Shown here: positions 30,198 to 35,713 of the stretch, one piece after another
Layout: each line of letters starts with the position of its first letter
How positions within the stretch are numbered: position 1 is the first letter of the stretch
Assembly (NCBI GenBank): GCA_016223005.1
Contig: JACRPW010000025.1
Coordinates: forward strand, 1 to 62,488
Source of the DNA: Deltaproteobacteria bacterium
GTDB lineage: Bacteria > Desulfobacterota > GWC2-55-46 > UBA9637 > GWC2-42-11
Direction of reading: 5' to 3'
DNA length: 62,488 nt
Made by a program: the position numbers and the translations under genes
Notes under the pieces: model-generated
What the model was told of the DNA's origin: nothing
Database searches by the model: none
Seen by the model: the letters and a program-made list of their open reading frames with translations, nothing else

Positions 30198-31418
30198 ATG
30201 CCATTACCTAAAAAATCCATCCTAGCGCTTGCTGACGGCACTGTGTTTGAGGGCTGTTCCTTCGGCGCTGAAGGCGAGGCGATTGGCGAGGTTGTGTTCA
30301 ATACATCTATGGCAGGGTATCAGGAGATTTTGACTGACCCGTCTTATAAAGGGCAGATTGTTACAATGACATATACCCAGATTGGCAACTATGGAATCAA
30401 TGAAGAGGATGTTGAGTCTCATAGACCATGGGCAGAGGGTTTTATAGTAAAGGAATCTTGCGATTATCCAAGCAACTGGCGGTGCAAGGAAACATTAGAC
30501 AGTTATCTAAAGAAAAATAATATTGTCGGAATAAAGGGCATAGACACAAGGGCTTTGACAAGGCATTTGAGGACTCACGGCGCAATGAACGGTGTTATAT
30601 CAACAGAATTGGGGACAGAAGTTGGGGACAGATTTGAAATCTGTCCCCTATTATCTGTCCCCAGCCTTGTTAAAAAGGCAAGGGAATTTCCATCCATGGC
30701 AGGGCTTGATTTAGCAAAAGAGGTTACATGCAAAGAGCCTTATTATTGGAAACAGGGCTTGTGGAATTTAGAAAGAGGTTATACACTCCGAACTCCGAAC
30801 TCCGAACTCCGAACTTACCGTGTGGTTGCCTACGATTTCGGAATTAAATTCAACATCCTCCGCAACCTTGTCCATTTTGGATGCGATGTTACTGTAGTGC
30901 CTGCGTGGACATCTGCCGAAGATGTTTTAAAGATGAACCCGGATGGTATATTCCTGTCTAATGGTCCCGGAGATCCTGATGCTGTAACATATGCCATAGA
31001 AAATGTAAGAAAACTAATTGGAAAAAAACCGATATTTGGAATCTGTCTGGGACATCAAATACTTGGTTTGGCCCTTGGCGGAAAAACATACAAATTAAAG
31101 TTTGGGCACAGAGGTGGCAACCAGCCTGTAATGGATTTGACAACAAGAAGGGTTGAAATCACAGCGCAGAACCACGGTTTTGCAGTGGATGTGGATTCTC
31201 TGAAAGGGATTGCTGAACTTACGCATATAAATCTGAATGATAAAACAGTGGAGGGGCTTGCACATAAAAAACTTCCGCTCTATTCTGTCCAGTATCATCC
31301 AGAGGCGTCCCCCGGACCTCATGATGCAAGTTATCTCTTTAAAAGGTTTGTGGATTTGATGGAGGGCAGATGGTCGCTGAACTTGATTCAGGAAGTAGGG
31401 GGGTTGCGTCCATCATAA
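30198..31418 (+). CDS. carA: carbamoyl-phosphate synthase small subunit
   Basis: 406 residues; glutamine amidotransferase subunit supplying ammonia to CarB for arginine and pyrimidine synthesis. N-terminal [20 protein letters not shown] and [20 protein letters not shown] (in parts). C-terminal class I GATase with catalytic Cys in [16 protein letters not shown] and His-x-Glu in [11 protein letters not shown]. It is about 20-25 residues longer than usual because of two in-frame repeats: a family A element (30611-30662) encoding [16 protein letters not shown], and an ACTCCGA x4 heptad array (30784-30816) encoding [10 protein letters not shown] at the domain junction. AAGGAG precedes the ATG. No carB follows; the convergent next gene overlaps by 6 bases. 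Confidence 0.95.
30611..30662. repeat. Repeat family A element inside carA
   Basis: Nested palindrome: outer half-sites GGGGACAGAA and TTATCTGTCCCC flank an inner GGGGACAGATTT/AAATCTGTCCCC palindrome. Translated in frame within the linker after GVIST. Confidence 0.9.
30784..30816. repeat. Heptad repeat array inside carA
   Basis: ACTCCGA repeated four times with a partial fifth, in frame at the junction between the N-terminal and GATase domains. Confidence 0.9.
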
Positions 31419-32925: not shown

Positions 32926-33128
32926 ATTAAGTTACACTCCTTTAATCCAAAAAAAGCGGTTGCCCCGAAAAATAAAAACTTAAATGCATTTTTCGGGTTA
33001 ACTATGGGGCTTGGACAACCGGGGACAGCCCCTGATGCCCCTGATAGAATCAATCAGGGGCATTCAGGGGTAAAATCTGTCCCCAAATTTTCACGCATCA
33101 CGTATAACGCACACGCACAACGGTTTTT
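32926..33128. repeat. Intergenic block of nested palindromic repeats
   Basis: Holds a family C variant at 32964-32997 (CCCGAAAAAT...ATGCATTTTTCGGG), flanked by GCGGTTG and CAACCG-type arms. At 33021-33084 is a family A pair (GGGGACAG ... CTGTCCCC) that encloses another inverted repeat (GCCCCTGAT / ATCAGGGGC). No gene is visible. Upstream of the exchanger and downstream of icd. Confidence 0.8.
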
Positions 33129-35414
<2,286 letters not shown>

Positions 35415-35428
35415 TTATATTGCAGCAT

Positions 35429-35449
35429 CCCCGATTTAGACACTCGGGG
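35429..35449. repeat. Small hairpin in the icd leader
   Basis: CCCCGA (35429-35434) and TCGGGG (35444-35449) with a nine-base loop. It lies between the riboswitch terminator and icd; related to family A by the following GGGGACAGG. Confidence 0.6.
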
Positions 35450-35490
35450 ACAGGTTTATGCCTTCCGCATCACCCCCTTTTTGCTCCAAT

Positions 35491-35552
35491 AAAAAAAACC
35501 GTCTGGCATACAACAAATATAGATATAAAATTTGTTATATGTGCCCAGACGG
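35491..35552 (-). terminator. Intrinsic terminator of the ZTP riboswitch
   Basis: On the minus strand, CCGTCTGG (35552-35545) pairs with CCAGACGG (35506-35499); the stem is extended inward by an AT-rich helix (AACAAAT/ATTTGTT) and followed by eight U (35498-35491). The 5' arm is the same sequence as the conserved 3' motif of the riboswitch, so aptamer and terminator are mutually exclusive. Confidence 0.88.
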
Positions 35553-35621
35553 TCGGCTTTATTGTGTCATATCTTCCACTACCCCGGTGGTGGCCACCTT
35601 GATTCCGTCAGTTATGGAAGC
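35543..35621 (-). ncRNA. ZTP (pfl) riboswitch aptamer upstream of icd
   Basis: Reading the minus strand: P1 strand CTTCCA (35620-35615), conserved AACTGACGG, P2 GGTGG/CCACC, the hallmark ACCGGGG (35587-35581), P1 partner TGGAAG (35578-35573), a linker, and the hallmark CCGTCTGGGC (35552-35543). In the standard form these are ACTGGCG and CCGCCTGGGC; here both sides of the pseudoknot changed together (GACGG with CCGTC), which keeps pairing. The class senses ZTP/ZMP and turns genes on by preventing termination. Downstream gene: icd. Confidence 0.87.
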
Positions 35622-35638
35622 AACTTATGAGGATGATT

Positions 35639-35667
35639 TTCTTACTATAAAAACAGGGGGTTGTCAA
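35639..35667 (-). promoter_or_regulatory. Possible promoter of the riboswitch-icd transcript
   Basis: TTGACA on the minus strand (35667-35662), 17-base spacer, weak -10 TAAGAA (35644-35639). Transcription would begin close to the P1 stem of the riboswitch. Confidence 0.45.
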
Positions 35668-35713
35668 TCTTTTTTTGAAAACTTTTTTTGAAAACTTGAA
35701 GTGGGGTTAAAGT

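Follow-up and report, generated by a model that had tools for sequence, protein, structure and literature searches.

Monomeric NADP-dependent isocitrate dehydrogenase (icd) in this deltaproteobacterium is probably controlled by a transcriptional ZMP/ZTP ON riboswitch. By its sequence, the RNA in question appears to be a genuine ZTP riboswitch and a member of the known class; its aptamer, terminator, position and conservation are established computationally. The stretch analysed, a contig of 62,488 nt referred to here as the window, carries the following features:

35536..35625, minus strand: ZMP/ZTP (pfl) riboswitch aptamer, single copy, full-length match to RF01750
35606..35609, minus strand: pseudoknot 5′ strand GACG, read from the sequence
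35548..35551, minus strand: pseudoknot 3′ strand CGTC, within CCGTCTGGGC, from the sequence and the 31-aptamer alignment
35491..35553, minus strand: intrinsic terminator, fold -25.7 kcal/mol, 5′ arm ACCGTCTGG identical to the aptamer 3′ motif, T8 at 35491-35498
35414..35490, minus strand: terminator-icd stretch with a dispersed palindromic repeat, related copies of which lie on contigs 15, 97 and 101 of the genome
33129..35351, minus strand: icd, monomeric NADP-dependent isocitrate dehydrogenase, 740 aa (TIGR00178)
35644..35667, minus strand: candidate promoter P1, TTGACA at 35667-35662 and TATAGT at 35649-35644, 12-nt spacer

The Rfam ZMP-ZTP model RF01750 matches at full length (35625-35536, minus strand) with 51.2 bits against a gathering score of 39 bits, and a whole-genome search with this model returned one ZTP RNA, the copy before icd. 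Both hallmark motifs, P1, P2 and the pseudoknot strands GACG and CGTC are present. A sequence-only reading had recognised a ZTP riboswitch from these elements and called for a covariance-model search; the score, above threshold rather than below it, bears the identification out. That reading placed the element at 35491-35621, which is correct at the terminator end, but the aptamer runs slightly further, to 35625. Within an alignment of 31 icd aptamers, 96.1% of cells are paired in the named structure and 33 cells show compensatory change, compared with 10.2 +/- 3.4 in shuffles (0 of 500 as high). Two-sided changes occur at 7 pairs, and the named structure exceeds slid versions of itself in both paired cells and covariation score. 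The whole leader, moreover, folds 4.55 sd better than shuffles.

The pseudoknot joins the P1-P2 internal loop to the CCG-C/T-CTGGGC motif, and its GACG/CGTC strands are invariant and complementary in 31 of 31 icd aptamers. The change from GGCG/CGCC to GACG/CGTC, previously noted as compensatory, holds against the general consensus but is no novelty of this RNA: the A-U pair is found in 99 of the 107 ZTP RNAs examined, and the GGCG/CGCC form in three ZTP RNAs from outside the class. The GACG/CGTC pseudoknot is thus a class-wide rule and not new. Ligand contacts of the Fusobacterium ulcerans ZTP riboswitch are reported as U16, G17, G63, C69 and G71 (PMC11419147). Under our own mapping, with numbering anchored on A18/U68, the equivalents of these residues are invariant across the 31 icd aptamers.

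The terminator is a long stem followed by T8, and its 5′ arm, as previously claimed, reuses the aptamer 3′ motif. Among 172 runs of six or more T on both strands of the window, only that of the icd leader has an 8-nt arm that finds its perfect complement 18-75 nt upstream, and a chance terminator was rejected on this basis. An overlapping terminator of 12-16 pairs that shares the 3′ motif is found in all 34 icd leaders identified among related genomes (see below), and a platform sharing this motif in 66 of 73 non-icd ZTP leaders. Since the 3′ motif of the aptamer doubles as the 5′ arm of the terminator, this is the layout expected of an ON switch. An ON mechanism by a terminator overlapping the aptamer was described by Weinberg 2010 (PMC2864571), and the terminator competes with the pseudoknot in the F. 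ulcerans riboswitch (PMC11419147). In the ligand-free state, the 3′ motif of the nascent RNA (35553-35545) would be captured by its complement at 35499-35507, forming the long terminator hairpin ahead of T8 and halting transcription before icd. When 10-formyl-THF is short, PurH would stall and ZMP/ZTP would rise; bound ligand would then lock the GACG/CGTC pseudoknot and withhold the terminator arm, so that icd is transcribed. Here the ligand, the direction of the response and the physiology are those we infer.

The next gene on the minus strand, 184 nt past the aptamer, is icd, whose product matches TIGR00178 over residues 3-739 with 1326 bits (curated cutoff 950). Its description as the only downstream gene is right for the adjacent gene but unproven for a sole target, because icd is followed by no detected terminator and, ~200 bp on, by an exchanger-like gene. 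The interval between terminator and icd contains a dispersed palindrome of the GGGGACAG/CTGTCCCC kind. Such palindromes recur in the window at 35414-35460, 6183, 19598, 30611-30655, 33021-33077 and 62273, some of them inside genes, e.g. the carbamoyl-phosphate synthase small subunit frame at 30198-31418. A second riboswitch in this interval (the TGATG...CCCCGA/TCGGGG stretch) was rejected, as it has no Rfam match and resembles the dispersed repeat.

Collecting icd leaders from relatives, as had been suggested, revealed that the pairing is widely shared. Across 196 related genomes, ZTP RNAs were found in 52 and monomeric icd in 63; in 34 genomes, the window's included, a ZTP RNA lies 129-511 nt upstream of an icd on the same strand. 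One of these distances, 187 nt at locus L192, is extrapolated, as the first part of its icd falls outside the match; this icd (G046 contig 37:60146-62311) has five in-frame stops behind an intact-looking ZTP riboswitch. A pairing common to 34 genomes is no accident of one genome. All 34 belong to one class. Spread to other phyla was rejected: 78 monomeric-icd loci of other taxa (L034-L111) all lack a ZTP RNA ahead of the gene, and the pairing is absent from 134 genomes of the same phylum outside the class. The sole hits in the search of icd loci were L033 and decayed copies. Within the window's own family, monomeric icd was not detected in G001, and the contig of G002 starts inside icd, leaving its leader uncovered.

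Upstream of the aptamer, most relatives carry TTGACA, 16-18 nt and TAnnnT; in G004, as read from its sequence, the spacer to TATAGT is 16 nt. No good promoter for the window's icd was found besides the P1 hexamers, and given their 12-nt spacer, either P1 may be weak or read-through from upstream genes may supply transcription. A tandem GTTTTCAAAAAAA repeat occupies window positions 35668-35695, directly upstream of the TTGACA of P1.

A second promoter bears on how far the switch governs icd. The sequence-only reading had held that a conserved bypass promoter between 35352 and 35490 would tell against riboswitch control; none was found there in the window, but 22 of 34 relatives carry one between terminator and icd. 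This promoter, P2, is sigma-70-like and conserved (TTGACA-N17-TTTAGT or close variants), scores better than nearly all shuffles, and from its sequence would bypass the switch to give switch-independent expression of icd. It also stands alone in the riboswitch-less genomes G030 and G049, which suggests that icd was first served by P2 and acquired the riboswitch module upstream of it later. One could therefore argue that a promoter lying past the terminator, ahead of the start codon, drives most icd expression and that the riboswitch tops it up or is marginal. We consider this improbable, as P2 is absent from the window and unmatched in 11 other riboswitch-bearing leaders, and as aptamer and terminator are kept under covariation, indicating that the switch is selected even where P2 exists. 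Under riboswitch control, the module was probably placed upstream of the older promoter in an ancestor within the class, and in most relatives the switch would form an inducible layer over basal expression. The window's lineage seems to have lost that downstream promoter; expression of icd may depend on the switch there, and control may be tighter.

Several ZTP RNAs of the class have decayed. G004 retains only the first half of the aptamer, with the icd ribosome-binding site shortly after, and G009 retains the terminator and a damaged aptamer; with the class model they score 16.6 and 32.3 bits, respectively, against 87.3 for an intact aptamer. The IDH tree places G009 among riboswitch-bearing relatives, well supported, and G004 within the same, partly unresolved clade, so both decayed copies lie among intact ones. 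The pntA leaders of G024 and G042 have also decayed, and the ZTP RNAs L244 and L246, which precede pyrophosphatase-pntA, have no recognisable 3′ motif and look decayed. The window's copy might likewise be decaying and no longer work: it is among the weaker scorers (51.2 vs up to 68 bits), has an extra U after GGGG, follows a promoter with a 12-nt spacer and is the last copy in its genome. Its pseudoknot, hallmark motifs and ligand-contact equivalents are nevertheless all intact, its P1 stem retains a two-sided change (G-C to A-U, columns 11/54) and its terminator is very strong; decay is improbable.

The identity of the regulated activity is addressed by G003, in which monomeric icd was not detected. 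Here a ZTP RNA with a 14-pair terminator precedes a dimeric NADP-icd (L151, NF006156 635 bits) that is non-homologous with the monomeric enzyme. This replacement, a single case, speaks for isocitrate dehydrogenase activity, and against a hitch-hiking gene, as the target.

To place icd among the targets of the class, we tallied which gene comes first behind each of 107 ZTP RNAs, the window's included along with a few of other classes. One representative per cluster gave the family name; fhs and pyrophosphatase were identified by eye from sequence:

monomeric icd: 34/107
rnfC: 30/107
class-V aminotransferase then serA: 19/107
CPA2 antiporter: 5/107
sucC/acl-like: 5/107
pntA: 3/107, plus 2 behind pyrophosphatase
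serA: 2/107
fhs: 2/107, both in other classes
kup: 1/107
dimeric icd: 1/107
others: 3/107

Loci L145, L150, L186 and L142 exemplify this unusual regulon. Within the class, no ZTP RNA was found before fhs, though many of its genomes have full-length fhs. Targets such as icd, rnf, pnt, sucC, kup and the CPA2 antiporter are unusual for ZTP RNAs, and together with the class-wide A-U pair they could be explained if the GACG/CGTC form senses a different ligand. This is very improbable: A18 and U68 sit in the corresponding helix, the interdomain pseudoknot, of the F. ulcerans ZMP riboswitch (PMC11419147), so an A-U pair does not point to a new ligand; moreover, the contact-residue equivalents are invariant and serA fits one-carbon supply. 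Retaining ZMP/ZTP as the ligand, we lean slightly towards a class regulon that has shifted from genes of purine and folate metabolism to the supply of reductant and carbon (both icd types, transhydrogenase, Rnf, succinyl-CoA ligase, serine synthesis and cation transport), in which 10-formyl-THF shortage would control NADPH and TCA flux and of which the window's genome kept the icd branch only.

Metabolically, icd, pnt and rnf make or move reductant and serA feeds serine-derived one-carbon units, which together suggest a reading in terms of NADPH and serine. The target list (icd, pntA, rnf, serA, sucC) would fit reductant and serine supply, the transporters less well. Shortage of 10-formyl-folate would thereby be coupled to 2-oxoglutarate or NADPH supply, and the payoff is probably NADPH, with 2-oxoglutarate for glutamate and serine, refilling reduced folates and one-carbon units. 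ZMP would arise normally, since the window's genome encodes the AICAR transformylase domain of purH, split over two frames (G000 contig 77:993-2031, L268 and L269) by a frameshift or an assembly error. For formate-THF ligase, the genome has a single fhs-like frame, reduced to 195 residues (G000 contig 18:8474-9052, L266) that cover only family positions 2-45 and 404-555. With most of the enzyme missing, the route from formate into folate may be gone, or the assembly may be at fault.

In the literature we could read, no joint mention of a ZTP riboswitch and isocitrate dehydrogenase was found; the gene tables of Weinberg 2010 and Kim et al. 2015 may list the pairing already. Within that literature, icd as a conserved target and the class regulon are new, whereas the kind of RNA is known. 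The pairing would extend ZTP alarmone signalling beyond purine and one-carbon genes to a TCA-cycle, NADPH-making enzyme in 34 genomes of a little-known class, with a non-homologous enzyme replacement as natural evidence for isocitrate dehydrogenase activity as the target. It offers a case in which signalling from folate shortage to redox and carbon supply can be tested.

Overall, the window's RNA shares with the RF01750 ZMP/ZTP riboswitches their sequence motifs, P1/P2/P3, pseudoknot and a terminator overlapping the 3′ motif, but differs in its target, icd, where purH, fhs, pfl, glyA and folD are the common targets reported (PMC2864571). With the F. ulcerans ZTP riboswitch it has in common the A and U residues of the interdomain pseudoknot and the competition between terminator and pseudoknot (PMC11419147), whereas organism and target gene differ and the window's terminator stem is extended by an A+U-rich hairpin.
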